From: Aeriscardovia sp.
GTDB lineage: Bacteria > Actinomycetota > Actinomycetes > Actinomycetales > Bifidobacteriaceae
DNA length: 64,000 nt
Reading direction: 5' to 3'
NCBI GenBank assembly: GCA_017413255.1
Contig: JAFPUC010000008.1
Coordinates: 1-64,000, forward strand
Shown here: positions 21,263-40,576 of the stretch, piece by piece
Position numbering within the stretch: position 1 is the stretch's first letter
Layout: every line of letters begins with the position of its first letter
Notes under the pieces: model-generated
The model's input: the letters and a program-made list of their open reading frames with translations, nothing else
The model's database searches: none
What the model was told of the DNA's origin: nothing
Position numbers and translations under genes: made by a program

Positions 21263-21867
21263 TCACAGCGGGGTAAAAATAGGCTCTCTTTACCGCGATC
21301 GCAGAAATTGTGAATAATACTTCCTGACTTGACTTCTCAAATTAAACATAAGCCAGAATTTAACTATCAAAACTGTAAATCAATGGGCGTCAAATGGGTT
21401 GATAGTTGGGCGGAGCCTGCAGGATGAAAAAAGTAAATACAATTTTGCCATCAGTACTAGAAAAAGATCCCGGCATCATTTGGGGTACCACAAACCTTGA
21501 TGAAAAGAGCTTTTAACTTTCTTTAAATATGCTTCAAACATGTGTTAGCAATCCAATAAAAAATCCCGGCCTTTTAAACCGTGCAACCGATGCCCTCACA
21601 TTCTCTACCCTGCTACGGGGGTTTTACTGGATTAAACAGGCAGAACATAAAATGCGTTCAATGGACTCAAATACTAAACTGGACCAAGTAGAAAAAATAC
21701 CCAGCCTATGATTCTCGCTCTGGCACCGCGCAAATCCGGTGGAAAAGAACTGCTGGCCTCCCACCCTCGATCCCACTCTGAACTAGGGTGTTTTTGTTCT
21801 CCATAAAAACTAAGACGGAATCCACTATTCTTTCTCGCTCATCCCGTTTGCCCTTAAAGGATGCAGC
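21263..21867. other. Intergenic region between murA and the type IIG R-M gene
   Basis: About 600 bp without a convincing gene. The first 50 bp match the upstream flank of the murA fragment at 28751-28800. A possible 30-codon reading frame at 21424-21516 (MKKVNTILPSVLEKDPGIIW at its start) follows GCAGG but has no recognised relative. A 10-base echo of the tRNA-Gln 3' end (TTGGGGTACC) lies at 21480-21489. On the minus strand the frame of the R-M gene stays open for about 54 codons past its TAG stop. Confidence 0.4.
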
Positions 21868-24762
21868 CTAGCCTTCTTTTTTGGAAGTCATTTGTTGATA
21901 GGCTTCTAGCAGCACTCTCCACCTCTCTCCTTTTGTGAGAAACTTTTTCGGGGTAAATAGCGCGTCCACCGCTTTATCAAGCTTTTCATGGGCCTTGCGC
22001 AAACTTGGCGGCATATATTGAGGATCGTATATGCGCCTAAGCGTAACTCCCTTTTTCTTTTGCTCCGAGCGCACAGTAAGTACATCCGCCCCTCGCTCTA
22101 TAATCAAATTTCTTTGATTGTCTGTAATATCTGGAAAAGGGAAGGTGTTCCACACCTGCGTATTGCCAAAATTGTGACTCAGGCCAAATCTCCCCCCTAC
22201 CAAGTCTTGCCATGCCTTAAACATAGCGCTCTCAACCACTGGAAATGCCAATTCATTTGATTCTTCTACCACGTACAGTTTGTTGCTGAACACTACCCGC
22301 TGCGGCAAAAACCCGGCTGCAAAATATTCCCTGATGGGAGTGAAAACCTCAGGGATGGCTAATGTTGCTTCATGGCTTGTAGGTTCTACAATTTCCTGGA
22401 AGCAATATGGAGTAGCGGCGGCGCGCCTTGTTGCAGCTTTTGTAGATTTCAGCCTGTATTTTCTAACGATTTCTAGCCTGTTTTTTAAAAACTTGCTCTT
22501 TTCAATTTGAGATGCCAATCCGTCTCTTTCATAAATTTCAGGTGTGATCCACAGGCACCAGCGTTTCTTACCAGACGCAAGCTGTTCTGCCCCGAAATAA
22601 GGAAGCACGTACTTGGAGGCCACAAGATCTTTATCAGCTTCTGCTTTTGCAGATTCGTTTTCCAGCACCAGTCCTCCGCCATCTGCAGGTTTGCAGCCCA
22701 TGCAGCATTGGGGAAGCTGGGAGAGAGGAGAGGCTTCCTCTTTAACGAATACAGTCGGGAGATCGTCGAGGTACTGGGAAATGTTTTCAACCTCCCTAAA
22801 AGCTCCGCATTCCCCGCTGTCTTTATCCCACAAATGGTAGGGAGGCTTGCAGTCTTGGGCCATTCCGGCTATCACCGCCGCTACTGAAACTTTTGGCCTG
22901 TCCCATTTAAAGGGGGGATAGGCAAAAAAGATTTTCCAACCCATATTGAAAATCGGCTCAAAAAGCGGAGTGACTTGGTTGCCTTCTACAATCGAACTTG
23001 TGGTAACAAAGGAAAACCGTGCCCCAGAACCGTTCAAAAAATCAGCAGCCTTGTAAAGCCATGCTGTACAGTAGTCAAATCTCCCGCAGTAGTTTCTTCC
23101 CCACACTGATTTCAGGTCTTTTTTCTGGGTGTCATCCATATTGCTGTATCCCCTATAGGGAGGATTTCCAAAAACGTAGAGTGCTGCGGAGGGTTTTACG
23201 ATCTCTCCCCAGTCGGTTTCAAGAGAATTTTTTCCCCCGACAATGCCTTGAACTTCATATTTCAAGGGCAAAAATCTAGGAGGGAGGGAAGAAGACCGGA
23301 AACGCGAATAACTCCTTTTTAAAGCCTGCTCGCGGGCTATGTAGAGCGAAGTTCTGGCTATCATTGCAGCATATTTGTCCAGTTCAATTCCATGAAACTG
23401 GGATAGGGAAACTTTAACCTCCTGATCCAGATCGTGGGCAGTCTCATTTTCCAGCTCTATCACGTCATCTTCCAGGTTCCTAAGCTCCCAGAAAGATTCA
23501 ATTAGGAATGCTCCGCTGCCGCAAGCCGGATCAAAAAACTGCAAACTTCCCAGCTTTTCATGAAAGCACTTCAACCTTTTCTGTTTTTCCTCGTAATTTT
23601 CGATTTTTTCAATTCTGCTCAATTCCGCTCTTAAATGGCTCATAAATAAAGGTTCTATGACTTTTTGTATGTTCTCCCTTGAGGTGTTGTACATCCCGTT
23701 TTCGCGCCGATATTCGCCTTTAAAAGCCTGGTCCATAATCATACCGAAAACGGAAATGTCAATGCGGTCCCAATCTTCAGTTCCAAGCACAAAATCTTTC
23801 AAAACACCGTAGACTGAGGCGGGAAAGGCTGGAAAAGTATTAATTTCTTCCCCGTTAAAGTCCTTAGAACTAAAAAGTTCCCCATCCACATAGGGGAAAC
23901 TGCGCAGAGATTCCCGTATTCCGGCTAAGGCTCGATCGCGGCGATCCTTAATGTTTAGGCATTTGAATAGCATCATGAGATCTGAAGAAAGGCGCGATCC
24001 ATCTGTGCCGTCAAGAAAAGACTCAAAATCGTGGTTTGGAAAGATTGCGCCCAATTTGTCCGAGGTGCTGTTTGCAAAGAGAAGGAAGACTATCCGCATT
24101 ATAATAAGCGGTATTTCATCTTCATACTTCTTTCTGTCTTCTTCGCTTAAATCCGGGTCTTCCTCAATACCCTTGCGCAGGCTTTGATAGAGACCGTCAA
24201 TCTTATCTGCGATCTTCTGAGTGCCTTCAGGATCTAGAATTGAAAATCCTTCTTCAGGTTTCTCTCCCTCCTTGAATAATCTTTCAAAGAGATCAAGTCT
24301 TTGAGGCATTTCTTCCCAAGAGCACTCTGCATAAAATCTCCCATTGAGCCCTTCAGGGGTGTCCAAATCATAGAACCGGAACACATCAAAATTAGAAGTG
24401 ACTATAATTGGAACCTTTTCCCAGTCAGGAAGGTCATCATGGTACTCTCTGGCCTGTTCAAAAGGAGTGAGTTTTGGTTTGCCAGCCCCCCTGCTTTCGG
24501 GCTTGTCTAAATCCATTCCAGGTTTTTTCTGCTCAACTATAAAGCCGTATTTTTGCGAATAAACGTCAGAAAAACCTCCCTTGACTGTCTCCTTTTCAAA
24601 TTCCAATCCCTTGTGCGTCCCTGCAAAGAGATCTGCAAGGTCTATCCACAAAACCTGGTAAAGCGGCCGCTCGCGCTCGCTCTTATTTTCAGTTTTCCAA
24701 TTCCTTACAAAGCTTTCTACTCTTTCTTGCAAAGGCTTTTCAGCTGAAAACAAGTCATCCAT
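21868..24762 (-). CDS. Type IIG/IIL restriction-modification enzyme (MmeI-like)
   Basis: A single 964-residue polypeptide combining nuclease and adenine methyltransferase. The N-terminus has an MmeI-type nuclease block: SDVYSQKYGFIVEQKKPGMD (PD-ExK: Asp, Glu-x-Lys), then VPIIVTSNFDVFRFYDLD. The methylase core has FFDPACGSGAFLIESF (SAM motif I, about 411-426) and VFGNPPYRGY (catalytic NPPY), so it makes N6-methyladenine. A target-recognition and C-terminal region follows (TPYCFQEIV, FGNTQVWNTFPFPDI, LDKAVDALF). The ATG at 24760 has GGGAGGA upstream. No separate specificity subunit is needed. It is divergent from the 287-residue gene. The recognition sequence cannot be read from the protein. 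Confidence 0.85.
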   Translation of the reverse strand: MDDLFSAEKPLQERVESFVRNWKTENKSERERPLYQVLWIDLADLFAGTHKGLEFEKETVKGGFSDVYSQKYGFIVEQKKPGMDLDKPESRGAGKPKLTPFEQAREYHDDLPDWEKVPIIVTSNFDVFRFYDLDTPEGLNGRFYAECSWEEMPQRLDLFERLFKEGEKPEEGFSILDPEGTQKIADKIDGLYQSLRKGIEEDPDLSEEDRKKYEDEIPLIIMRIVFLLFANSTSDKLGAIFPNHDFESFLDGTDGSRLSSDLMMLFKCLNIKDRRDRALAGIRESLRSFPYVDGELFSSKDFNGEEINTFPAFPASVYGVLKDFVLGTEDWDRIDISVFGMIMDQAFKGEYRRENGMYNTSRENIQKVIEPLFMSHLRAELSRIEKIENYEEKQKRLKCFHEKLGSLQFFDPACGSGAFLIESFWELRNLEDDVIELENETAHDLDQEVKVSLSQFHGIELDKYAAMIARTSLYIAREQALKRSYSRFRSSSLPPRFLPLKYEVQGIVGGKNSLETDWGEIVKPSAALYVFGNPPYRGYSNMDDTQKKDLKSVWGRNYCGRFDYCTAWLYKAADFLNGSGARFSFVTTSSIVEGNQVTPLFEPIFNMGWKIFFAYPPFKWDRPKVSVAAVIAGMAQDCKPPYHLWDKDSGECGAFREVENISQYLDDLPTVFVKEEASPLSQLPQCCMGCKPADGGGLVLENESAKAEADKDLVASKYVLPYFGAEQLASGKKRWCLWITPEIYERDGLASQIEKSKFLKNRLEIVRKYRLKSTKAATRRAAATPYCFQEIVEPTSHEATLAIPEVFTPIREYFAAGFLPQRVVFSNKLYVVEESNELAFPVVESAMFKAWQDLVGGRFGLSHNFGNTQVWNTFPFPDITDNQRNLIIERGADVLTVRSEQKKKGVTLRRIYDPQYMPPSLRKAHEKLDKAVDALFTPKKFLTKGERWRVLLEAYQQMTSKKEG

Positions 24763-24891
24763 AAGTCCTCCCTGCGTGAAGGGAAATAGTAACTAAGCAA
24801 TTTAAGAATTTATAGTATACAATTAGACACAATAAGAAAGCAAGAAAAGGCGGCTATTACGTCAAATAATCCACGCACAAACTTTCTAAAC

Positions 24892-25755
24892 ATGCAAGTT
24901 CCCCAGGTTCCCCAAATAACAGATAATGACTTTAAAGTTTTATGTTATCTGCATTATTTAGATTTAGATAAAGACAATGGTGATAAGACGATAGGGGTCC
25001 TTTTGGAAAATAACAAACTTGCAGTAAAGGCGCACGAAAGTTATGCATTTTGGGACGAAGCCCTGAACGGTCCAAATGCCGACATTAAAGATGGGAAAAC
25101 CGTTCTGCAGAATATGGATCCTGACAAACTAACTTCGGAAGAAGCTAGAAAAGCTATAAAAACTGATGATATTGAGTGGATTAAGAATCACTGGCGAAAC
25201 AGCGAGAATATACATCGAAATGGTGGGGGCAAGGAGCCTTGGTACGTCTTCGGTTTCGATGATGCTCCTCTTGTATGTGGAATTATCATAACGCTTGCTT
25301 TTAAGGCGCTATTCGAACTAACCAGACATTCAGATGGGGATGGACATTTTTCGGCTGGTATGTTGATGTGGTTTGTAAAATCACTTTCTGAGAAGACGAA
25401 AGACAAAATAAGGGCCGTTGGGGAAAAGTTCTTGGATGGCATAAAGGGTAACGATTCTAAGAAAATGAAGGATGCTCGAGGGGAAGCTAACAAGGCAATG
25501 AATCAGGAGCTTTTTGGAAAAGACGACCCTGAGGACGAGGAGATATACCAGAAACTTAAGGGTGATTTCTTAAAAAAGATAAAGACTCGTTTGTCTTTAG
25601 ATGATAGAGAATTGTCAACATGGATTATCAATGGTTTTGATGGTTTCCATACCTCTGAAGCTGTTCTTAAAGAGATGGAGGACAGGATGGATAGGCACTT
25701 TGCAGAAAAGTACCCCTACTCTGCAACTACTTCAGCTTTGGGCGCAGCGCATTAA
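24892..25755 (+). CDS. Unrecognised 287-residue protein beside the type IIG enzyme
   Basis: No family is recognised. The frame is long, with acceptable coding character. The N-terminal half is hydrophilic (QITDNDFKVLCYLHYLDLD, EEARKAIKTDDIEWIKNHW). One hydrophobic stretch at about residues 123-140 (DAPLVCGIIITLAFKALFEL) could be a single membrane segment. The C-terminal half is strongly charged and helical (KKMKDARGEANKAMNQELFG, KLKGDFLKKIKTRLSLDDRE). There is no obvious Shine-Dalgarno at ATG 24892, and the frame is open further upstream. It is divergent from the R-M gene across 129 bp and is AT-richer than the core genome, suggesting shared acquisition. Confidence 0.6.
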   Translation: MQVPQVPQITDNDFKVLCYLHYLDLDKDNGDKTIGVLLENNKLAVKAHESYAFWDEALNGPNADIKDGKTVLQNMDPDKLTSEEARKAIKTDDIEWIKNHWRNSENIHRNGGGKEPWYVFGFDDAPLVCGIIITLAFKALFELTRHSDGDGHFSAGMLMWFVKSLSEKTKDKIRAVGEKFLDGIKGNDSKKMKDARGEANKAMNQELFGKDDPEDEEIYQKLKGDFLKKIKTRLSLDDRELSTWIINGFDGFHTSEAVLKEMEDRMDRHFAEKYPYSATTSALGAAH

Positions 25756-25791
25756 TGGCAGATGGTCAAAGCAGGCAAAAAATAGAAGGCC

Positions 25792-26261
25792 CTACCGCCT
25801 TACGTACTCCCCTTTGTACTCGTCTATAATTACATCCTTCCTCATGCGTCCGGCAAAGAGGGATGCTGCAAAGGTGCGGTAGAGCTTCCCCCCAGAGGCT
25901 GGATTTCCTTAGACAGGGCATATTTGCCGCCTTTGAGGGGCCACAGGCCGCCGCGCTCCATCTGCTCCTCCACCACCTGGAATACATGAAGGGGACGATG
26001 GAGGGGTTGAAAGGGGTATTGTAGCGGTAGAGGTCCAAAAGGGCCTTGAAAAAATCCTCGTCTCCAGCCGGGAGCGGAAAAGCGGGGAGTGCAGATGACA
26101 GAAGAGGGGGTGTACTGGGTAACTTCGGCAAAGTAGTCTCCTCCGGTAAAGTAGCCTGCCTCCACGTAGGGGATGGTAAAGACGGAAAAGCCCCTTTCCC
26201 TCAGGATCTGCTCTATAGCAGGCATCGCTCCGAGCTCTTCTTCGACTACGATTGAGGTCAA
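25792..26261 (-). pseudogene. Decayed gene with several frameshifts (about 155 codons)
   Basis: A start (TTG 26259-26261) with a strong AAGGAGGGGG site begins a frame TSIVVEEELGAMPAIEQILR... that moves between frames at about 26090, 25985 and 25890. Pieces in order are VEAGYFTGGDYFAEVTQYTP, PLPAGDEDFFKALLDLYRYN, VFQVVEEQMERGGLWPLKGG and LYRTFAASLFAGRMRKDVII, ending VRR at 25792. The pieces form a coherent protein-like series, so this is a once-intact gene. I do not recognise the family. Its GC content is host-like rather than AT-rich. Confidence 0.55.
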
Positions 26262-26324
26262 GACTTTCCCCCTCCTTTGCCGTACCATTGGCTCTATCCT
26301 ACCCAATCCCCCCCAGAAGACAGG

Positions 26325-27357
26325 TTAGAACCCCTCATCTTCCAGATCTTCAAGGGATATTGCGGGCACATTGGTCTTCACGAGGTAGGAGGCGTATGGG
26401 GGAGCCGTCGGTTATGCGGTTCAGATCCGAATCCGGGTTCCAAGGTACGTCCCTCAAGGCGGCCTGGTTGTGTGAGACTCTAAGCCTGAACTCATGGGAC
26501 CCCGATACCCCCTGATGGAAGGCCCTGGGGGATACTGTAGCTTTCTTGGGGAGGGCGTCCCCGTCTTTAAGGCGCTTTCTTAGGGAGGCCAGAGTCACAG
26601 ATTTTCCGGGCTCATGCACCAAAACCTGCGTCAGAACGTAGTCCGCGGAGTTCTCCTGTTTCTATTCCAGGACGATGGGCAGGCTGTTCTACGCTTCAGC
26701 CTTCAGTCTTTTTGACCCCACAGCTTCGCAAATCCACCTCCTGCAGTCTTCCACCAGATCCGGAGTAACTTCAAAAGGAATGTTGCGGTCGAACTTGTGT
26801 TTGAACTCGATTATGCACACCCTGCGGAAAACGGCGTCGTCATTGTCTTCGCTCACGGGGGGGGGAGGATGTTTAAGATTATGAAGGGCTTCCACCCGAT
26901 TGGTCGAAACCTCCTACAAATAAGCTTCTCTCATCGGGGTTGACATTGCCTTGTACCTCGATCTTGAACTGTGTGCTTAACCTCTCCCTAACTCATACTC
27001 CTCCCAAGGCGGGAGGCGCAGAAAAAAGGGGAATAGATTTGCGATAATGGAGTAATAAACGCGCTGGCCTTTCAACTCATACCCCTATTTCTCCTGCATC
27101 CAAGGGCAACCTGGTAGGCTATCTGTTCTCTGCGGTACGCTTGTCAATTTCTCCTTTCGCCTTCCTCAGTACATAGGAAAAATCGTTCCTTTGGTTTGCA
27201 AAGTAACCTAACCCTCTGGGAAGGTTGTTATTTCTGGAGCCCTTGATCAAGAGATCTAATGCACCCTCGTCTCTACAGGAGAGACAATTCAGGAAGGCTT
27301 CTATCCTATCTTTTGCGCCTATCGTAGCTCCGCATCTTTTCCTAAGATGGCGCCCTA
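26325..27357 (-). pseudogene. Heavily decayed gene remnant(s) upstream of the previous pseudogene
   Basis: Reading the minus strand from 27357 down, protein-like segments follow each other in shifting frames. First come RHLRKRCGATIGAKDRIEAF through GEIDKRTAENR (27119-27357), then ELKGQRVYYSIIANLFPF, then STQFKIEVQGNVNPDERSLF. Next is STNRVEALHNLKHPPPPVSE to WICEAVGSKRLKAEA, followed in frame after two TAG codons by ADYVLTQVLVHEPGKSVTLA, and finally VKTNVPAISLEDLEDEGF ending at 26325. The SEDNDDAVFRRVCIIEFKH part resembles either the end of a D5/P4-type phage helicase or a PD-ExK nuclease strand; neither is secure. At least four frameshifts and two stops are present. Confidence 0.45.
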
Positions 27358-27523
27358 ATTAGATAGAAAAAAGAACTACCGATATGTTTTAATCTCTTAT
27401 TCGACCCCGCTCCATGTTAAAAGCGATTGAAAAACTCAATTACATCCGCCCCCATTGTGGGCCGGTCATGCGCTCTAAGGGTTATAAACCGAATCAACTT
27501 GGACGGAGGATAACAAAAAATAA

Positions 27524-27582
27524 GGGCAAATGGCTCATAAACAGGCTTGTTAACGCCCCGCTGGAAATGAAGCCATTTGCCC
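27524..27582. repeat. 12-bp perfect inverted repeat with 35-nt spacer
   Basis: GGGCAAATGGCT (27524-27535) is exactly complementary in inverted order to AGCCATTTGCCC (27571-27582). A further short palindromic element AAAATG-GG-CATTTT follows at 27584-27597. It lies just downstream of the 45-codon gene at 27620 and has no T-tract, so it is not an obvious terminator. It could be a protein-binding site or a remnant end of a mobile element. Confidence 0.4.
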
Positions 27583-27619
27583 CAAAATGGGCATTTTGCC
27601 ACAGGATACTAATAGAGAT

Positions 27620-27757
27620 TTATATCTCCCTCGGGCGCACCTCCTCGCAGTCAGCCTTAAATTTATCAAGATCGGCTTTCAATTCGGCATAGTCTGCATC
27701 TAAAGCGGCCAGGTCGTCGTTTAATACATCCTGCCTAATCTTATCATATTCTAGCAT
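27620..27757 (-). CDS. 45-aa helical protein, paralogue A
   Basis: A short gene with a good ribosome site (AGAGGAG, 7 bases before ATG 27755-27757) encoding 45 residues: MLEYDKIRQDVLNDDLAALD, then ADYAELKADLDKFKADCEEV, then RPREI. The product is charged, helical, with one Cys. The gene at 35338-35475 has exactly the same length and shares LDADYA-x-LKADL-x-KF-x-ADCEE-x2-PREI, so the pair is certainly paralogous and under selection or recently copied. No family is recognised. Both copies have a conserved 19-bp element about 150-160 bp upstream. Confidence 0.65.
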   Translation of the reverse strand: MLEYDKIRQDVLNDDLAALDADYAELKADLDKFKADCEEVRPREI

Positions 27758-28455
27758 TTGGCTACTCCTCTTTTTCATCATTTCGTCTTCGCCCAAGCTT
27801 CCAGTACTGCTTTCGGCCTTTTACAAAAGTGGGATCGCTATACCTAGGAAGGCCAAAACTTGGGAGTTCCAAGGAGAAATGTAAGCCCTCTACCCCTTCT
27901 AACCTTCCATGGGCAAATCTATAATGATCCGATATACGTTTTCTTGCTGTGGTACCTTCCTACGCTTTTCATACTTCGGAGACTTTTGGTTATTGCAAAT
28001 GAAATAAACGGTTTTATAGATTGCCTAAGGTTGGGATCATTTAAGGAAGCTGGAAAAATAGAGCATGAGATTATCTAAGAAGGAGCTAGAATACTAGGCT
28101 CGGCTATAACTTTTTAGTGCAAAAACCTATTGATGAAATAGGGAAGCATTTGGGACAGCATTGCAACACATTGCTCCCCCGGACACTAATACACAAAACT
28201 CTCGATATATGTCATCCTAACTCGACGGCGCCCTCTACCTGTGAGATGTATGGGAAGCAAATTATTGTATATGAATGGAGCTATGGATAAGGGTTTCATC
28301 CAGGCACTTGATGAGCCCACACCTGAGCCTGTTAAGGAGACTGCTACTCCTGCTACCTCATAGGACAAATCTGCAGCATGATGGGTAGTGGGCAAAAGGT
28401 GTATGCTGTCCTTTGGAATCCTGAAAATTATGATAGAGCGGCTGAGGACCCTAAT
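27758..28455. other. Region between the 45-aa gene and the murA fragment
   Basis: About 700 bp with no gene I can support. It carries the conserved 19-bp element (27913-27931). A plus-strand open stretch at 27860-28078 and a 31-codon stretch ending PTPEPVKETATPATS near 28360 are protein-like but lack starts, ribosome sites or relatives. It is probably decayed sequence at the junction between two accessory units. Confidence 0.4.
27913..27931. promoter_or_regulatory. Conserved 19-bp element upstream of 45-aa gene A
   Basis: GCAAATCTATAATGATCCG here matches GCAAATCTATAATAATCCG at 35616-35634 in 18 of 19 positions. Both lie upstream of the paralogous 45-codon genes, at 156 and 141 bp from their start codons. 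The element contains TATAAT on the plus strand and TATTATAG/CATTATAG on the minus strand, so a promoter in either direction is possible. No convincing -35 box was found. Confidence 0.4.
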
Positions 28456-28459
28456 TGGA

Positions 28460-28736
28460 AGGGAGGAGGCGTTTGTTTTGGCTACCCCAGCTTCTTTTTC
28501 GGCATCGTCCTTTGCGCCATGGAGGCGCAAAAGATTTGCGACCGCCCTCACACCCCTAATATCAGGGATGCTCTGTATTACCGATTCCCAGGGGCCAAAA
28601 GAGATGCCACCGTTGCCCTGCTCACAAAGTTTTTGGCACCCTTCACCCGTATTTCGCCCTTCAAAGGGCTTCCACCCCACACGGTAAGGGTATCTTCCCC
28701 ACCGCAGGTCTGGCTTTGCTCAGAGCTTGTGTTCAT
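28460..28736 (-). pseudogene. 5' fragment of murA (frameshifted duplicate)
   Basis: On the minus strand ATG 28734-28736 opens MNTSSEQSQTCGGEDTLTVW, then GGSPLKGEIRVKGAKNFVSR and ATVASLLAPG, matching the first 50 residues of MurA. One base is missing in the G-run after APG. Homology then continues in the next frame as ESVIQSIPDIRGVRAVANLL, RLHGAKDDAEKEAGVAK and TNASSLP, to about MurA codon 88, and stops. The similarity also extends about 60 bp upstream (GATTATCTCACAGC and flank), so the promoter was copied too. The orientation is the same as real murA, 7.5 kb away, making a direct repeat. Confidence 0.85.
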
Positions 28737-28800
28737 ACTTAGGATTATCTCACAGCAGCGTAAAAATCGGATTTCTTGACTGCGAACGCAGAGATTGAAC

Positions 28801-29089
28801 TTGATATTTTTGTTATATACCTCAGATTTCTAATTTCAAAGTAAGAACTGAAACTAAGATTGTAGTTTCTAATGCAAATAGTTGGCTTCTCTAGATCCCA
28901 TGGAAGGAAATAAAATAAAAATGACAATACTGCCCTACTGTACTAAAAGAAATAAAGAGCCTATAGGCCAGTCAGAAAGTGGGTAAAGGGGAATCCATTG
29001 TTCTTCGTCTACGTAAAGGTATAAACGATCACGTCAATGGGCTGTCTTTAATGGATGCTATCTTTTCCCTTCCCCTCTTTCTCTACTAT
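28801..29089. other. AT-rich stretch without a supported gene
   Basis: Between the upstream flank of the murA fragment and the next pseudogene. It is AT-rich with frequent stops in all frames. A plus-strand reading frame at 28979-29215 overlaps the end of the decayed minus-strand gene and has no protein-like features. Confidence 0.4.
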
Positions 29090-29944
29090 TCAGAAATTGT
29101 TAGGGCTAAGTGCTTGGCAAATGATTGCCATCCAGAGCAAATGTCTCAGATTGCAATTCTTTTTAAATTCACTAATATCGGGCAACTCATCCCTGTAATT
29201 AAGTCTGGACGGTAACGCCTTAAATAATGCATCATCCATAGCATCATCCAGCTCTTCTTCTGCTTTTATCGAATTGCCAAAATAATTCTTAATATCACCA
29301 GGATTATTAAATCTGTTGTTTCGAATGAGGCAGCGAACCTTCTGCACGCAATCTAAGATTTGTTTTATTGCAGGATCTTCGCTTTCTAAAAGATAAGAAA
29401 AAAGTGGGAAAATAATGTTTAGCATACCCGCGGTTAAATGTTCCTTATCCTTAGTTACGTCATACAATGCCCTGAAGCCAGAGTATCTAAAAATGGCAAA
29501 TATAAGACTGTCTCCGCTGCATTTTTACCTTTCAGGAGCCAGTAGTTGTACTTCGGAATGATAATCTTTCTATCAATGGTATTGAAATCGGTATCATCAA
29601 GATAATACGCGCGAGGTGAAGTGTCTAGTGGCACAAAAAGATAGCCCCTCTTTTCTTTGGCCATCCATGCCTCTCCTAGTACATCTTCTCTTTTCCTCCT
29701 CTTACGGGCATAGTACCTTTGACAAAGCTGTTCATTGATTCCCCACTTATTGCCGTCTTCGTATGGGAAGTAGTAACAAGCTTCAGTTATGGGAAACTCT
29801 CCCTCACTTTTCTTCTTAAGGCACTTCACATCAGATGAAATATAGGGAGGTATGCAGCTACACAATCCATCAGTCTTTGGAAGAAAATAATTAAACTTGC
29901 TAATTAAACAAAATTGAAATGGAAATAGGATTTTTTTTATTCAT
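29090..29944 (-). pseudogene. Unidentified gene broken by shifts at A-runs
   Basis: Protein-like sequence of about 280 codons on the minus strand, broken twice at homopolymers. ATG 29942-29944 begins MNKK, and an A8 run must lose or gain a base to enter the frame ILFPFQFCLISKFNYFLPKT and PPYISSDVKCLKKKSEGEFP. A second shift at an A5 run (about 29523) leads from IPKYNYWLLKGK into CSGDSLIFAIFRYSGFRALY and KDKEHLTAGMLNIIFPLFSY, ending PNNF at 29090. The composition is AT-rich. No family is recognised. Homopolymer sequencing error is an alternative to true decay. Confidence 0.55.
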
Positions 29945-30187
29945 ATCTCCCAGTTGTCCCCTAGGTGGGTCTGACCATCTACTAACAGGCTAATAACTTG
30001 CTTTGCTCTTTTTTTAATCATCTCCTCCCTCTTTTCTTCGGAGGTATCTTCACGCAGACCATCGAAATTATTTGCTTTGATCTGATCATGCAAATAATCT
30101 AACCATGTGTATGTACCCATGATTTTCTCCTTCTGTCAGATTTTTATTTTATTGTGCAAATCTCCATATCATTTATTATACCATTTC

Positions 30188-30581
30188 TTAATTCAAATAA
30201 AGTTCACTCAGCTGACATATGATCAAGCAGTGCTCAAATAGCGGCACCATAAATCTCCCAATTATCCCTTTTGAGGGAAATTTATAGACGATTCTCCTTT
30301 TATTCTTATCAAGTCCCATCCTGTTTATCTTTCTTTCAGACTTGCCAATCTGCAGGAGATCTTCATATTTGGACATATGCCCATACCCTACACAGAGGGT
30401 AACGAGCTCATCCGCGGCCTTTTCAAATTCTCCAAAGTGAGAGAAGGGAAGGTATGTGTGAGGAAAATCTCTTTCAAGGCCCTTCTAATATTTTCTTTGG
30501 GTAGAAAATGCCGTAGATATAGCCAAAGTGTCGTTTCTTAGTCTCGTTGGCGCCAGAGTTCAAAACTACACAAATGCCGCA
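30188..30581 (-). pseudogene. Unidentified gene remnant with one frameshift
   Basis: The minus strand reads CGICVVLNSGANETKKRHFG and YIYGIFYPKKILEG, then shifts frame at about 30485 into LERDFPHTYLPFSHFGEFEK, AADELVTLCVGYGHMSKYED and LLQIGKSERKINRMGLDKNK, ending LSELYLN at 30188. No start codon with a ribosome site was found, so the 5' end is lost or shifted as well. It lies upstream of the previous pseudogene in the same direction and could be part of the same decayed unit. Family unknown. Confidence 0.45.
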
Positions 30582-30839
30582 CTAATTCAGTAGAAAAGAA
30601 GAATTGACTTTATGGAATTCGTGCCCTTATAACATCGCCTGAAGTCCGTGGAAGTGTGAGAGGAAGAGAGGGGAGAGCCTTTTAGTCATGCAGTGAGGTA
30701 TGGGAGGTGGTGCGTGGAGGTAAGGATACTGGAATAAAAAAGGGCGTGCTGAAGTTTTGGCGTGCTGGGAACAGTATGGCAGAAACCCAGAAATACGTTA
30801 GGCTCTGAATAAGGCTAAAAAAGAACCTGCCCTCATCCT

Positions 30840-32136
30840 TTATCTAGTTTTAACGTCCTCCCATACATCCCAAGCGGAGTAACAATCGTCTTTGGCATTT
30901 GTCCAGTCGCCGTAGGCCGCGTCCCATTGCCTGCCTGCCGCTACGACCGGCTTCGTATTCGTCATAAGCTTCATCATATTCGGATTCGTCATAGGCGTCT
31001 TTGGCTTCATCCAGCCTGTCTTCCGCCTCTCTGAGTCTCTCTTGGGCTTCGCCTGTTTTATCGCTAGCCCTGTAGCGAGCGTCCTGCGCTCTTTGGTAGG
31101 CCTCGTAAGCTCTATCCAGCTTGTCAGAATCTCCGTATCTTAAATCTTTGTATGCCCGCTTCGCATCGTCTTCCCTGCTTTGTGCAGCTCTCTCAGCTTC
31201 TTGAGCTCCCTCGTACCTAGATTCTGCGGAGTCGTAGGCGCTCTGGGCGGCATCTATCCTGGCCTTGGCCGCGTCCAACCTGTCTTTAGCTGCCATATAT
31301 TTATCATGCTTGACATCGCGCTCATTTTTGGCTTCATCTAGCCTGTCTTGAGCCCTCCCCCATGCATTCCAAGTGCTTTCCCATTTGCTAAAGGCCTTTT
31401 GAATTCCCATATAGGCGCTGTCCCACTTGTTATAGGCGGCATTTTCTTTACCTGTGGAAGATTGCCACCTGGAAATGGCATCTTAAATTTCTGAGTAAGC
31501 TCTTTCCCAGTTGCGCCATGCAGAATTTAATTTGATATAACTGGAATTGCGGTTGTTGAAATCAGCATCACATTCGTCCTCGCAAGCTTTTGCTTTGCGC
31601 ACTGCGTCATTGCATTTGGCGCGGGCCCGCGCCATTTCACTCTTTGACTCCTGCAGCTTAGCATCAGCATCCTCCACCTTGCGCTTAACTTCCCCGCGTT
31701 TTGCTTGGAGTGCGTCATATTTTTCTTTGGCCGCCATATATTTGGCGTAAATGTCGTCATATTTGGCTTTGGCCTTTTCAATTTTTCTTCCGGTGGCCTT
31801 TTTTAATTTCTCATCGGCTTTTTGCAGCTTGTCTTTTGCGGCGTCATATTGTGCATCTATAGCCGTGTATTTGAACTCTGGGGCATTGGCTTTGGCCCTC
31901 TTAAATTCAGCTTCAGCCATGCTTAAATTAGATTCTGAGGCCTTTACTTTGCTATAATCGACGCTCAACTCATTTTTGTCGACTGCCAATTCATTTTGAG
32001 CGGCGGTGAGTTTATTTTGATCAGCAGCATATTTAGAGTCTATGGCCTTAAATCCGTCATAGGCCGTTCTTAACTCGTCAAACAGGGAGTTATATCTAGC
32101 TTTGGCAGTTTGCCAGTCTCCGTTGATGTCCGACAT
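30840..32136 (-). pseudogene. Long Ala/Lys/Asp-rich coiled-coil gene with Trp clusters, interrupted
   Basis: ATG 32134-32136 opens MSDINGDWQTAKARYNSLFD and 217 residues of near-continuous coiled coil (SKYAADQNKLTAAQNELAVD, AKDKLQKADEKLKKATGRKI). An in-frame TAA at 31483-31485 follows, and the same frame then continues without a break as DAISRWQSSTGKENAAYNKW and YMGIQKAFSKWESTWNAWGR into another coiled coil (AKDRLDAAKARIDAAQSAYD). Near 30925-30950 one base is lost: the coding signal moves to QWDAAYGDWTNAKDDCYSAW and ends at 30840. Trp-rich patches thus sit at the start, middle and end of about 430 codons. It has no signal peptide or membrane segment. The two halves could instead be separate proteins. 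Function unknown. Confidence 0.6.
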
Positions 32137-32648
32137 AAACTCTCTTACACTTCCTTTTCACTTGTCATTTTCTCCCGAGCCTCAAGCAGAGCCTTCTGTC
32201 TTTTTTGGGATTGATTTTAGAGAGGTTCATATGCCGTGGCGGGGAAACTTTTTCCACTTTTATTTACCAAAGAAAACAGTAATAAACGCTATTTTAAATT
32301 ATTTCCCCTGTATGAAGATGGTGTGCTCCCGATAGTCTAACATCTATGACTACCCTTGAAAACATGAATTGTGACTTCCAATCACTTTGTTACAAAGCTG
32401 TAGGGTCGGATGGAATATGGGATTAGTATTGAGGCTAAAAGAAAAGGTGCCAAACGAGCAATAAGATTTCATTCCTTCCCAATGTATGATAATTTTCAAT
32501 TCTTTATTAATGTACTCCATTACCCTATTCAAGAAAACTAACCTTAAGATTTATACAGTTGAGTTTAATCGCACATACCTTCCCGTTGTTTTTAAGAGTC
32601 TTTTAAGTGCTATCTATTTAAATTATTGTCCCACTATTATCAACACAC
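32137..32648. other. AT-rich intergenic region without supported gene
   Basis: About 510 bp between the coiled-coil gene and the restriction endonuclease. A short minus-strand stretch just upstream of 32136 reads QSQKRQKALLEAREKMTSEK before a stop and may be the end of a lost gene. Nothing else is coding-like. The promoter of the coiled-coil gene should be in the first 150 bp. Confidence 0.4.
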
Positions 32649-33542
32649 TTATTGATGCGTTTCCTCTAAATATTCTTCGATTTTTTCCGAGATATTTGCG
32701 TATACCTCTTCTTCTTTTGCATTGAAATAATTTTTTAACATGTTTAATACTATTCCTTTTGGAAATATTATCGGTAATATTTGTTCCCTTATATCCTCGT
32801 TATTAAATAATTTTCTATAGATTGATGGAGATAAATCCTTTAATTCCTCAAAAGTTTCTTTGCTATTGCTGTCAAGGTTAATTTCGGGCATATCTGGCAG
32901 CGTCCTTTTCCATTTAGTGAGGTGGCCTATAATTTCATTCCACATTTCATATGGGAAATCTTTAATACCATTTTTAGAAAACATTTCACCCCCATAGTAA
33001 AGCTTTGGGTGGCAACCGTACGCCTCTGCCATTTCAAACATTTGACCTGCGTAGTACCTCTTATTTTTCTTTAACGAGTCATCTATAAACCACATTATCG
33101 GTATTACTTCATTTCTCTTGTACTTGCATGACGCCTCAAAATATTTAGCCTCAAAATTTGAAAATTGCCCCACCTTTTTAGTGCTGTCGTGGTCATCTCT
33201 TACTTTCTGTTCAATAAGATATACAACGTTGCCCTTCCTAAACAACTGATCAATATCGTATGTTTGTCCGTCTCTTGTTTCACGCTCTGATAATTTCTTT
33301 GGCAGCATTTCAAATTTCAATACTCTGAAATATGCTTCCATTATGTCTTCTAGCGCATCTCCAAATTTAATTTCATGGGATTGGGTTACATTCTGTATTA
33401 GCTTTGTTCTTGGTGTTGTCGGTCTAAATAATCCAACATACCTGTCTGGAGAGCTCTCTATTTTTATTACCAAATCTGCGGCGCTGCCTTCAAATAGTTT
33501 GGTATTTAATTTATTTACAAAAGCATCATAATCCATTATCAC
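32649..33542 (-). CDS. Type II restriction endonuclease, HinfI/TdeIII-like
   Basis: A 297-residue nuclease directly downstream (18 bp) of its cognate-type methylase. A PD-(D/E)xK core is visible: YDIDQLF (Asp) and VVYLIEQKVRDDHDSTKK (Glu-x-Lys), followed by FSNFEAKYFEASCKYKRNE. Context and this motif suggest the HinfI (GANTC) type, or the related TdeIII fold. The start is GTG 33540-33542 or ATG 33534-33536. The gene is markedly AT-rich compared with the core genome, evidence for horizontal transfer together with the methylase. It appears intact, so the system may be functional. Confidence 0.75.
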   Translation of the reverse strand: MIMDYDAFVNKLNTKLFEGSAADLVIKIESSPDRYVGLFRPTTPRTKLIQNVTQSHEIKFGDALEDIMEAYFRVLKFEMLPKKLSERETRDGQTYDIDQLFRKGNVVYLIEQKVRDDHDSTKKVGQFSNFEAKYFEASCKYKRNEVIPIMWFIDDSLKKNKRYYAGQMFEMAEAYGCHPKLYYGGEMFSKNGIKDFPYEMWNEIIGHLTKWKRTLPDMPEINLDSNSKETFEELKDLSPSIYRKLFNNEDIREQILPIIFPKGIVLNMLKNYFNAKEEEVYANISEKIEEYLEETHQ

Positions 33543-33560
33543 TGTGATACGCGCTCTTCC

Positions 33561-34649
33561 TTATAAGTTAGTTTCCCTTTGATACCTATATCGCAATGAA
33601 TCTAATGTCACAAATTCCCCATCATCGTTTTTCACCCAGAAGTAACTCCAGCCATTATTATTCACAAGCCCTAGCATTTTTGCAGACATTTTATGAATAG
33701 ATAAATCTTCCACCCCATCATTTACATATCCAGTGGCGGTAATAGTTACTTCTTCACTTCCATCCTTGCTGTATAACTTTTGGCCCGGACGTATGTATCC
33801 ATACTCCATCAGCTTTATCATTGGAACCTTTGGAGGCTTTACTTCTAACTTTAGATTTGTTACATCATCCAGCACGGGCTGTATGCTATCTAATCTTTTT
33901 TGCGCATATTTTATATATTTTTTCTCTCTTTCAAAACCTACATAATTTCTTCCTGTAGCTTTTGCCATTACGCCAGTTGTCCCTGTACCAAAGAACGGAT
34001 CCAAGACTAAATCACCAGGCTTGGAAGAAGATATTATGACCTTATACAACAATTCTTCTGGTTTTTGCGTTGAATGAACCTTTTGTCCCTTTTCATCTTT
34101 AAGCCGCTCAGTTCCAGTGCAGATGCCAATATTCCATACGCTTTTCTCTTGTTTACCGTTATTCAAATATTTCATAGTTTTGTAGTTAAAGGTATATTTG
34201 GCATTTCTGCTTTTAGTGCACCACAGTAATGTTTCATGTGAATTTTGAAATCTTGTACCTCCAAAATTTGGAACTGCGTTAGGCTTAGACCATATAACAT
34301 CATTTAGGATCCAAAATCCCATGTTTTGCATGATATAACCTAATCTGTATATATTTTGGAAGGATCCTATAATCCATATCGATGCATTTTTTTTCATTAC
34401 TCTTTTGCATTCGATCAACCATTTTGTCGTAAAGTCATCATATTCTGCGTAATCATCAAATTTATCCCATTCGTCTTCAACTCCTGCAAATTTTGTTCCA
34501 TTCGTTCTACGCAAAATACCATCTGTTTGCATAAAATATGGCGGGTCTGCAAAAACAAGATCTACGCTTTCTGCTGGCATTTTCTTTATCTCATCTATAC
34601 AATTTCCTTCAATAATTTTATTAATATAAAAATTCAAATCATTATTCAT
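33561..34649 (-). CDS. DNA adenine methyltransferase of the CcrM/M.HinfI type
   Basis: A 362-residue beta-class N6-adenine methylase: the catalytic DPPY (VDLVFADPPYFMQTDG, about 30-45) precedes the SAM motif LVLDPFFGTGTTGVMAKATG (about 217-236). HSTQKPEELLYKVI is also conserved. The C-terminal 80 residues (MEYGYIRPGQKLYSKDGSEE, then SIHKMSAKMLGL) form the RAMA domain found in CcrM and M.HinfI. The predicted target is GANTC, by analogy only. It precedes and probably is co-transcribed with the endonuclease. Base composition is strongly AT-rich. Start at ATG 34647-34649. Confidence 0.88.
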   Translation of the reverse strand: MNNDLNFYINKIIEGNCIDEIKKMPAESVDLVFADPPYFMQTDGILRRTNGTKFAGVEDEWDKFDDYAEYDDFTTKWLIECKRVMKKNASIWIIGSFQNIYRLGYIMQNMGFWILNDVIWSKPNAVPNFGGTRFQNSHETLLWCTKSRNAKYTFNYKTMKYLNNGKQEKSVWNIGICTGTERLKDEKGQKVHSTQKPEELLYKVIISSSKPGDLVLDPFFGTGTTGVMAKATGRNYVGFEREKKYIKYAQKRLDSIQPVLDDVTNLKLEVKPPKVPMIKLMEYGYIRPGQKLYSKDGSEEVTITATGYVNDGVEDLSIHKMSAKMLGLVNNNGWSYFWVKNDDGEFVTLDSLRYRYQRETNL

Positions 34650-35337
34650 TAGTGGTTTCCTTTCTTCCTCATAATCTCATATCCGGAAAAAGCATTAAGC
34701 ATAAACTTATTGTTCCCACTTTTTGTAACTTTAAATTTATAAGAATTTCAAAGAAAATTAGAGGGAAAATAACTGCCTTTGGCTGATGCGGTTAAGTGTA
34801 TAACTGCGATCTTCCTATTCTAAATATGTTGCCGTAGTTTATAGAAAGAAAAAAAGATAAATTGTAAAATCCTGTCTCTTAAGAAGAATAGGAATGGCAA
34901 TATTTTAAAGCGATTCATACAAAAAAAGAGGTTACAACCCAAACTCAATATTCAAAGCTTACTGCAATATATGGGCGAGGCTAAAAATTACCTAAGCGAA
35001 AAAATGTGGCATACGTTTCCAACGTTTCTAATTGGAAATGATGAAAAAAATCATAAAATGCAGTAAAAAGTTCTAGAAGAGAAAACAAGTCAAAGAAAAG
35101 TTTCCGGACTATAGCAGATTTCTGCCATCTTGATAGGTCAAACAAAGAAAAGTAACTTAAAAAGTTAATCGAGGCTTACAAAACTCTTGAGCTTGCCATA
35201 GGCTGTACGTTTGTTCCATTTTGTAAAGACAAATGAGTACATACAAGCGTTCTTGGCGGGGGGATTTGTCCTGACCCCAAACATAATATCTATTCGCCCT
35301 AAAAATAGCATCTTTACCCTTGGGAGAAAAGTACCTC
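34650..35337. other. AT-rich region with possible gene remnant
   Basis: About 690 bp. On the plus strand, fragments such as MGEAKNYLSEKMWHTFPTFL, FRTIADFCHLDRSNKEK and, after a stop, LKKLIEAYKTLELAIGCTFV followed by PFCKDK (ending about 35237) are protein-like but lie in different frames with stops between them. They may be the remains of one small gene. No family is recognised, and no RNA gene or repeat was seen. Confidence 0.3.
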
Positions 35338-35475
35338 TTATATCTCCCTCGGTCCTATTTCTTCGCAGTCTGCCCTAAATTTGGCAAGATCAGCCTTTAA
35401 TTTAGCGTAATCTGCATCCAAGTTAGCAAGATCATTATCCAGTTTCTTATGCTTATCCTTCTTATCGTCTGCCAT
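35338..35475 (-). CDS. 45-aa helical protein, paralogue B
   Basis: ATG 35473-35475 with AAAGGAGGAG 6 bases upstream encodes 45 residues: MADDKKDKHKKLDNDLANLD, then ADYAKLKADLAKFRADCEEI, then GPREI. The second half matches the product of 27620-27757 nearly residue for residue; the first 17 residues differ. A single Cys is conserved. The strong ribosome site, identical length and shared C-terminus argue for a real gene. It is the last gene of the accessory region before the tRNA pair. Function is unknown; the heptad-like spacing suggests a short coiled coil that could pair with the nearby long coiled-coil protein, but that is conjecture. Confidence 0.65.
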   Translation of the reverse strand: MADDKKDKHKKLDNDLANLDADYAKLKADLAKFRADCEEIGPREI

Positions 35476-36034
35476 GGCTTCTCCTCCTTTTCTTTTTGTT
35501 ATTAAACAGGCTTTTGGTGGAGCCAATCTACTTTGCCCTCGGATAAAACCGCTGCGGCTAAGAGCTCGCAATTGTGGTGCAAGGCTATGCACCCCGCCTT
35601 TTCCCGCTTTTCGGTGCAAATCTATAATAATCCGCTTTAAGCATCCATGTGTTTTTGCTTTCTTTGCGCCTTTAAATGTTTTAGTTAGAAGGTCTACCGC
35701 AGACTCTTATAATTCTGCTTTTCTCAAGGGTTTTAAGCCCGGAACCCATGAGAATCACTCCATTCTATGAGGAGGAATAAATTAATACAGTTTGTTAATG
35801 CTTTATAAACTTTCAAAAGGTCTTTGCCTTCCTACTTCACTAATGAATGTCTTTCTGGCAAAGGGGAAGGCTGCTTTATTACTCGTCTTCTTTTGCGTTT
35901 CGTGCAGGCTATATGGAATTTTGCCGCCTGTTTTTTCCTCAGCCCAATAAAAAACTGGAACAATTATTTGTTTGGAGCCAAGGCGGTGAAAAGATCAAAA
36001 AAGCAGCTTTCTAAGGGAGCTGCATAACCCTGTG
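35476..36034. other. Region between 45-aa gene B and tRNA-Gln
   Basis: About 560 bp without a supported gene. It holds the second copy of the 19-bp element at 35616-35634. Open stretches on the plus strand lack starts with ribosome sites or protein-like composition. This is where an attachment junction beside the tRNA genes would be expected, but no repeat of the tRNA 3' end longer than 10 bases was found within the accessory region. Confidence 0.35.
35616..35634. promoter_or_regulatory. Conserved 19-bp element upstream of 45-aa gene B
   Basis: GCAAATCTATAATAATCCG, one mismatch from the copy at 27913-27931 and at a similar distance (141 bp) from its 45-codon gene. The sequence between element and start codon is not well conserved between the two loci, so the element itself seems to be what is kept. 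Confidence 0.4.
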
Positions 36035-36109
36035 TGGTTGGGGTACCTGGACTCGAACCAAGAATAGATGAACCAGAATCACCTGTGTTGCCAATTACAC
36101 CATACCCCA
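36035..36109 (-). tRNA. tRNA-Gln (anticodon CTG)
   Basis: The minus strand folds as a full cloverleaf: acceptor TGGGGTA/TACCCCA, D arm GTGT-AATTGGCA-ACAC, anticodon stem GGTGA/TCATC with loop TTCTGGT (anticodon CTG, reads CAG), T stem CTTGG/CCAGG with loop TTCGAGT, discriminator A, and an encoded CCA. The two T-stem G-U pairs are acceptable. It lies 52 bp from tRNA-Glu and in the same direction as gltX. Confidence 0.92.
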
Positions 36110-36161
36110 ATGGTTGTATCACTTATATCCTAAGTTGTCCGTCTCACAATATAGGTGACAG

Positions 36162-36234
36162 TACCCCCAACCAGATTTGAACTGGTGTTACCGCCGTGAG
36201 AGGGCGATGTCCTAGACCACTAGACGATAGGGGC
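36162..36234 (-). tRNA. tRNA-Glu (anticodon CTC)
   Basis: Minus-strand cloverleaf beginning GCCCCTATCGTCTAGTGG: acceptor GCCCCTA/TGGGGGT, anticodon arm TCGCC-CTCTCAC-GGCGG (anticodon CTC, reads GAG), T arm ACCAG-TTCAAAT-CTGGT. The 3' CCA is not encoded here (CTG follows the discriminator A), in contrast to the neighbouring tRNA-Gln. It lies 63 bp downstream of gltX. Confidence 0.92.
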
Positions 36235-36297
36235 CAACCTCTTGCTTCTCAGCGAGATTACTTACACATTTCTGTGCTCGCCTTAAATTGTAGTACG

Positions 36298-37818
36298 TCA
36301 AATTTTGGAGCGCAAGGAGGAAATTCTTTCGATTACGACAGGTTTTCCGATTATCTCCAGAGATTCAAAGAGGGGGGCAGAAACCTTCTTTCCGCTGATG
36401 GCAAGGCGCACCGGGTTGAAGGCCTTCTTTGCCGACAGGGACATGTCGTTTATAAGGCAGTCGGTAAGAAGGGTGTGGAGGGTGTCTGCCTTCCAGTCTT
36501 CTTCCTGAACGTTTTCCAGTTCCTTAAGGGTCCTGTCGAGAATTTCCTTGTCGCTTAGCGTAAGGGGTTCAAGCGATCCCTCCTCGAACTGGAGTTCTCC
36601 GGCCCTGTCAATAAGGGGAAGCATCATAGGCACGGCTTCTGAGAGAAGACGGACCCTGGGTTGCACCAGTGGGGAGATTCTAAGAAGCAGGGCCTTTTCG
36701 TCTGCAGTAAGGTTCTCCCACTTGTCGCCGGACGCCAGCCCTTCCTTGAAGAGGTAGGGCACGCAGCGGTTTGCAAAGTCTTCGGTTTCCAGCATGCGGA
36801 TGTGGGAGGCGTTAATGGAGATGGCCTTCTTAAGATCGAACCTGGCGGGATTGGCCTTGACGTCTCTTACGTCAAACTTTTTGACCAGTTCTTCCATGGA
36901 GAAGACATCCCGATCCGAAGAGTAAGACCAGCCAAGGAGGGAGAGGTAATTCAAAAGGCCTTCCCTTGTAAAGCCCATATCCCTGAGAAGGAAGAGGTTG
37001 CTTTGCGGATCCCTCTTGGAAAGCTTCTTATTTCCCTCCCCCATCACGTAGGGAAGGTGGCCAAAGAGGGGCGTCTGCTTGGCAATGCCCAGCTTCTTTA
37101 GGTATTCGTAAAGGACGATCTGGCGGGGGGTGGAGGGAAGCAGGTCTTCTCCCCTAAGCACCATGTTCACATCCAAGATTGCGTCATCTACGGGGTTGGT
37201 GAGTGTGTAGAGGGGGTCTCCGTTGGGCCTGACGATTACAAAGTCCGGGAAAGATCCCGCTTTATAAGTTATGGGGCCTCTTACAAGGTCGTCCCAGCTA
37301 ATGTCCTTATCGGGAACGCGGATTCTAAGCGCAGGCTTCCTGCCTTCTTTCCTGAAGGCCTCTTTCTGCTCTTCGGTGAGGTTTCTGTCGTATCCGTCAT
37401 ATCCGAAGGTCTCCGGCCTTCCTGCAGCCTTATTTCTCTCAGCTATCTCTTCTGCCGTGGAGAAAGATTCGTAAGCGAACCCTGCCTCAAAGAGCTGCTT
37501 TGCTACGCCCTGGTATACTTCTTTCCTTCTTGATTGGAAGTAAAGGTCGTCATTTCCTTTTCCTATTCCCTCATCCCAGTCTATTCCCATCCAGTTGAGG
37601 GCCTCGATTATCATGTCGAGGCTTTCTTGTGTATCCCTCCTGTCATCGGTGTCTTCCATCCTGAAAATCAGGGTGCCTCCGGTGTGGCGGGCTTCAGCCC
37701 AGTTGTAAAGGGCGGTATGGATCATGCCCACGTGGGGAATGCCCGTGGGGGAAGGGCAAAATCTTAATCTCAAATGCTCCGGAATGGCCGGTTTTTCTTT
37801 ATCATTCTTTGCACTCAT
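36298..37818 (-). CDS. gltX: Glutamyl-tRNA synthetase
   Basis: Class I synthetase. The 506 residues contain the HIGH-type motif PSPTGIPHVGMIHTALYNW (about 26-44), MEDTDDRR, a GNKKLSKRD KMSKS-type loop and an all-helical anticodon-binding C-terminal domain. In Actinobacteria this enzyme usually charges both tRNA-Glu and tRNA-Gln, with GatCAB then amidating Glu-tRNA-Gln. Both tRNA genes lie directly downstream in the same direction, so enzyme and substrates are physically grouped. It diverges from the transporter gene at 37909. Confidence 0.95.
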   Translation of the reverse strand: MSAKNDKEKPAIPEHLRLRFCPSPTGIPHVGMIHTALYNWAEARHTGGTLIFRMEDTDDRRDTQESLDMIIEALNWMGIDWDEGIGKGNDDLYFQSRRKEVYQGVAKQLFEAGFAYESFSTAEEIAERNKAAGRPETFGYDGYDRNLTEEQKEAFRKEGRKPALRIRVPDKDISWDDLVRGPITYKAGSFPDFVIVRPNGDPLYTLTNPVDDAILDVNMVLRGEDLLPSTPRQIVLYEYLKKLGIAKQTPLFGHLPYVMGEGNKKLSKRDPQSNLFLLRDMGFTREGLLNYLSLLGWSYSSDRDVFSMEELVKKFDVRDVKANPARFDLKKAISINASHIRMLETEDFANRCVPYLFKEGLASGDKWENLTADEKALLLRISPLVQPRVRLLSEAVPMMLPLIDRAGELQFEEGSLEPLTLSDKEILDRTLKELENVQEEDWKADTLHTLLTDCLINDMSLSAKKAFNPVRLAISGKKVSAPLFESLEIIGKPVVIERISSLRSKI

Positions 37819-39789: not shown

Positions 39790-40576
39790 ATGATTGAAGC
39801 AGGCGAAGTGTCTCCGGAAATTGAAGAAAAGAAGAGAATTTACCGCCTTCGTTTGAGCCAGCCCCTCTACGGGGCGAGCCCTCTGGATGCCTGTGCGAGA
39901 TTTTTCTTTAAGTACGGCCAGTTTTCGGGAAGGGCCTCAAGGAGCGAATACTGGTACGCCAGCATGTGGCTCTCCATTTACCTTGTAGTCTGCTGGTGCG
40001 CATACGCCCTGTTTTTTTTACAATCCCTCCATTGTCGGCATTATTTTGCTTATCCTCATGGCTGCGGGGCTGATGTTTGCGCTAGTGCCCTTCCTTTCCC
40101 TCACCTCCAGGCGCTACCACGATGCCGGACTCAGCGCGCTTTGGATGCTTATAGGATCTGTAATATCCCTTGCCGGAATTGTAGTGGCAGGATCTGCCCT
40201 GGCGGATGCCACAAAATTAATGCTCGCGTTAAATCACTTAAACAAGTCCTTCGCCTCAGCTTCGGGAGGGGCCCCCACCCTTCAAAACCCCTCTACCCAA
40301 AGTGCCGCCTTTATTTCCGAAATGACTTTTTCTTCTGCCAAGGCCATCCTCCTAACTTCCATCAGGGAGGAAATAAGGCTTTTGTTTGTAGGATTTTTAA
40401 TTATGCTCCCCGGCCAGGTTGTGGACGTAATTTTCTGCCTTTTGCCCAGCAGGCAAAAGGGGGTCAGGTTTGACGTGCCCCGCCTTCCTTTCGAGTGGAC
40501 CGTCACAAAGGAAAGCTACCTAAATTCCCGCAAAAGGAAAGAAAAGGAAATCAGCGAATCTTTCCTGCAGGGTTGA
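39790..40576 (+). pseudogene. DUF805 membrane protein, frameshifted at a T8 tract
   Basis: The N-terminal part (ATG 39790) has the DUF805 signature FFKYGQFSGRASRSEYWYAS (about 38-57). At T8 (40012-40019) the frame is lost. With one T fewer it continues as YALFFYNPSIVGIILLILMA and LVPFLSLTSRRYHDAGLSAL, the second half of DUF805, then to the stop at 40576 (ESFLQG). About 262 codons in all, with 4 or so membrane helices. The rest is well conserved, so this is a recent inactivation, a phase-variable tract or a sequencing error. The gene follows the permease by 3 bp and overlaps the end of the phosphatase gene tail-to-tail by 26 bp. Confidence 0.75.

Follow-up and report, generated by a model that had tools for sequence, protein, structure and literature searches.

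The frame at 30840-32136 on the minus strand of the window, the whole 64,000-nucleotide stretch of Aeriscardovia DNA analysed here, which belongs to a 0.93-Mb genome, is very probably a recently inactivated copy of a single gene, interrupted by an in-frame stop and a frameshift. Its product would have been an all-helical coiled-coil protein some 430 aa long, probably cytosolic, from a family so far known only in Aeriscardovia. The first-pass annotation had described an in-frame TAA and one frameshift in a gene of about 430 codons, and both were confirmed on the minus strand. The N-terminal part (31483..32136) starts with ATG at 32136 and ends after 217 codons with the TAA at 31485-31483. The same frame then begins with DAISRWQSS at 31482 and runs for 184 codons to about 30931 (30931..31482, minus strand), taking in the middle Trp patch and the second coiled-coil arm; when the segment was nucleotide-shuffled, the frame stayed open over this length in 5e-5 of trials. 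The frame changes at about 30930-30950, and the shifted frame (30840..30950, minus strand), which carries the C-terminal Trp patch, encodes QWDAAYGDWTNAKDDCYSAWDVWEDVKTR followed by the stop at 30842-30840.

Intact homologues in a single ORF were found in three other Aeriscardovia genomes, G006, G005 and G002. The G006 ORF of 435 aa is 46% identical to the window sequence before the TAA and about 60-62% after it; the match extends past the frameshift, where the G006 C-terminus shares 54% identity over 35 aa. The frame past the TAA is open and protein-like, as had been noted. The G005 homologue has 354 aa (328 aa if an inner start is used), and the G002 homologue (293 aa) is a weak relative with 23-27% identity. 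In the comparison of the window with G006, dN/dS before the TAA was 0.33, dN after the TAA was 0.29 with dS saturated, and after the frameshift dN was 0.36 against a dS of 1.6. As dN lies well below dS in all three stretches, the sequence past both breaks was under protein-coding constraint until recently. Because non-synonymous change was restrained before the TAA, after it and beyond the frameshift, we conclude that one long protein was in all likelihood once made and that the breaks are recent, and the three single-ORF homologues within the genus agree with the earlier proposal of one long product. Among named relatives, the nearest are metagenome assemblies of Aeriscardovia recovered from yak gut, whose RGIG isolate names presumably come from the ruminant gut catalogue of PMC8199421. 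In G001 and G004 the contig stops immediately after gltX and in G003 within 1 kb of it, so absence of the gene from these three genomes is unproven.

The search for intact relatives also bears on the idea that the stop split the gene into two separate proteins, the second restarting at ATG 31410 and comprising 186 codons. An ATG-started ORF is indeed present at 31410-30850, but the intact G006 protein has Ala in place of its Met, a strong ribosome site is lacking ahead of it, and the frameshift deprives it of the conserved C-terminus. None of the homologues in G006, G005 and G002 is split; the arrangement as two separate genes had been named beforehand as the outcome speaking against a single protein. 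We regard this reading as very improbable. The same holds for functional recoding, in which UAA readthrough and a ribosomal frameshift would together yield the full-length protein and which we consider hardly credible. It could draw on a downstream frame that has no visible decay, with dN after the TAA not above that before it. However, a single message would require two recoding events, inspection by eye revealed neither a slippery heptamer nor a stimulatory structure at the shift, and neighbouring genes, that of the restriction enzyme among them, normally end in TAA. Stop-codon readthrough, which the first-pass annotation had left open, gained no support, and the intact relatives manage without recoding. 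From the inactivated copy, the full protein would be made only if rare readthrough and a frameshift both happened, and the 217-aa fragment with helices 1-2 could still be produced.

An assembly or sequencing error, with the gene intact in the living strain, is unlikely. The window comes from a draft assembly of 14 contigs, which is probably metagenome-derived like the congeners found, the remaining features of the broken gene look fresh, and a second window gene at about 40.01 kb differs from its G005 counterpart by one base in a T run. On the other hand, when conserved ORFs were compared with the syntenic genes of G005, 40 of 43 were intact in the window, the exceptions being a run-off at the window end, a likely antisense ORF and the T-run frameshift. 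The coiled-coil gene carries two independent defects of different type, and a stop of the substitution type is a rare assembly error. Two unlike defects in one gene, rare among the genes of the window, therefore favour true inactivation over general assembly noise; the inactivation as such is unremarkable gene decay, in a region rich in restriction enzymes. As a separate observation, the gene with the longer T run encodes a membrane protein (39790-40573, plus strand), and its frameshift relative to G005 may reflect decay, phase variation or an assembly error.

The Trp patches listed in the first-pass annotation were all found in the sequence. Heptad periodicity in the coiled-coil protein goes well beyond that of shuffles (z 4.7-10 for ILMVFWY), and the aromatic residues are spaced by 3, 4, 7, 10, 11 and 14. 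By these spacings, the patches are stretches of coiled coil whose core positions are occupied by Trp, Tyr or Phe. The N-terminus is hydrophilic in all four family members and has no hydrophobic signal, which bears out the earlier statement that an export signal is missing and suggests a cytosolic location. AlphaFold2 models of the G005 and G006 members were built from an alignment of three rows. The G005 model (pLDDT 78, pTM 0.66) has four long helices, which would fit a pair of antiparallel hairpin arms whose shared end lies close to the aromatic patches (N-terminal, middle and C-terminal); its confidence is highest around the patches and weak at the tip of the first hairpin and at the second turn. 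The G006 model shows the same helix order (pLDDT 87), and its pTM of 0.52 is low for this longer model, so that the packing of the patches is uncertain. A shared aromatic junction of the two predicted arms is only partly supported, because the most confident part of the G006 model is the second hairpin. Between G006 and G005 the aromatic patches and the TG-K segment are 33-58% conserved and the arms 16-20%. The aromatic patches might pack into one core, and the protein might act as a scaffold or clamp.

The earlier remark that the protein matches no known family holds across Pfam, NCBIfam, PHROGs, PADLOC and the sequences of the PDB, none of which offered a fitting family, and fold searches with the two models returned no match with E below 0.001 and none that stands out. 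A top Foldseek match for both models (E 0.016-0.03) was the coiled-coil regulatory domain of peptidoglycan hydrolases of the RipA/Cg1735 type, which shares long helical hairpins (VIA Z 10.4-13.0). The rmsd over the long match is 28-29 A (27.6 over 336 residues), the Z is as expected of unrelated helical bundles, and, unlike RipA/Cg1735, the family proteins have neither an NlpC/P60 domain in Pfam nor a signal peptide. Arms of the SMC, JetC, MukB or LmuB type likewise consist of long antiparallel heptad coiled coils, and there are weak matches to the NCBIfam profile SMC_prok_B (34.8 bits against a curated cut-off of 567) and to JetC in PADLOC (E about 1e-6). In contrast to SMC, JetC and MukB, the family proteins have no hinge domain and are only 293-435 aa long, and scans of the coiled-coil protein with Pfam and NCBIfam found no ABC-type ATPase head. 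The coiled coil of the PgrA/PrgA/SEC10 surface exclusion proteins is also Ala- and Lys-rich (VIA Z 11.9), and TIGR04320 (NCBIfam, PgrA/SEC10) scored 33.7 bits, under its curated cut-off of 70, but the family proteins have no visible export signal or LPXTG anchor. Phage tape-measure proteins are long and helical as well, and a single sub-threshold match to the profile PHROG 1272 (E 1.3e-4) was seen; unlike for tape measures, no phage genes were recognised around the locus and no phage record matched.

Searches of genome contigs, phages, plasmids and viral contigs found no relative outside the genus. One genome-contig scan was without matches and the other returned only G006 and G005, none of 50,697 phage records matched, and viral contigs and plasmids likewise gave nothing. 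A profile match in G297, a distant actinobacterium (E 1.6e-9), proved to be a coiled coil without Trp in a sensor-kinase-like protein and was rejected as a relative. The weak matches in the genera g8, g13 and g15, all with E above 1e-6, fall in frames 583-1456 codons long and were judged to be generic coiled coil. On the basis of these searches, the family appears to be genus-restricted, known so far only from Aeriscardovia and previously undescribed.

The first-pass annotation had also raised a link between the coiled-coil protein and 45-aa proteins, and this was tested and found unsupported. Six of the seven Aeriscardovia genomes carry the strongly conserved 45-aa protein (LDADYAKLKADLAKFRADCEEIGPREI type), at differing locations. 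Its two copies in the window (35338-35475 and 27620-27742, both on the minus strand) share upstream sequence too (27913-27936 and 35616-35639). As candidate homologues of the N-terminal patch, these proteins were touched weakly by the A3 profile (E 0.02-0.7), and in the reverse search heptad-preserving shuffles outscored the real coiled-coil proteins, which points to compositional likeness.

The broken gene lies in a variable island (21288..36300) between murA (19900-21249) on one side and gltX, tRNA-Glu and tRNA-Gln on the other. The island holds this gene, two restriction-modification (R-M) systems and gene remnants, and its contents differ in each Aeriscardovia genome. Directly upstream of the coiled-coil gene is an HpyAIV-family restriction enzyme (32649-33542, minus strand), paired with a CcrM-like adenine methyltransferase (33561-34649, minus strand; pair 32649..34649), and directly downstream is what remains of the C-terminal portion of a Type ISP/IIG R-M protein (30299..30563, minus strand). 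An MmeI-like R-M protein is also encoded in the island. In G005 the order is gltX, the tRNAs, the coiled-coil gene, a 45-aa gene and an intact Type ISP gene. In G006 the coiled-coil gene has a different location, flanked by a Type III system and an ISP remnant, and the gltX island carries R-M genes instead. The intact G002 gene sits directly between tRNA-Gln/gltX and murA. No conserved flanking DNA is shared around the four gene copies.

Several further features of the island were observed. The 5' part of murA is present a second time, in broken form, at 28453-28775 (minus strand). A 287-aa orphan ORF (24892-25755, plus strand) adjoins the MmeI-like gene; it belongs to no family in Pfam, NCBIfam, PHROGs or PADLOC and has a 64% identical homologue in G001. 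Extra Type ISP C-terminal pieces lie beyond the intact gene in G005 (L008 717-1162), much like the lone ISP C-terminal pieces in G006 and the window, and are possibly spare target-recognition fragments. The contig ends near gltX in G001, G004 and G003 suggest an island that varies between strains and interrupts assemblies.

A dedicated partnership of the coiled-coil protein with the neighbouring R-M systems, for example Type ISP, would fit the gene's position next to R-M genes or remnants in G000, G005 and G006, with ISP sequence downstream in all three. Such a partnership is nevertheless improbable: constant linkage fails, the neighbouring R-M types vary (HpyAIV, ISP, Type III, MmeI), and insertion at a shared hotspot would explain the proximity more simply. 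The proximity to R-M genes is best read as such a hotspot because the G002 gene has no R-M gene on its 5.5-kb contig.

By gltX (98% identical) and Ddl (91%), the window and G005 are the closest pair, whereas their coiled-coil proteins are only about 26% identical. With G006 the identities are 92% for gltX, 74% for Ddl and 51% for the coiled-coil protein, which is thus closer to that of G006. The near-identical gltX and Ddl beside a coiled-coil identity of about 26% to G005 imply that the history of the gene disagrees with that of the species, and either interspecies exchange or old divergent alleles would be needed to account for it. GC at third positions is 0.40-0.52 in the four gene copies versus 0.63-0.68 in core neighbours. 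The gene is probably accessory cargo of the gltX-murA island that either diverges fast or is exchanged horizontally, at a site where R-M systems insert as well.

From the location and the divergence, one may guess at a defence-related job of the family. It is conceivable, if rather doubtful, that the protein is an undescribed defence or counter-mobile-element factor, namely a cytosolic two-armed coiled coil in which the aromatic junction is conserved while the arms diverge fast, and whose gene was exchanged within Aeriscardovia at the gltX-murA island and recently lost from the window. The family represented by the broken frame is undescribed and restricted to the genus, and in its intact form it is of mild interest. 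Because intact members exist in no fewer than three further species, its function can be tested there instead of in the inactivated copy. A coiled-coil protein only 26% identical, set among nearly identical neighbours, marks the gltX-murA junction as a hotspot of exchange in a reduced-genome relative of bifidobacteria.
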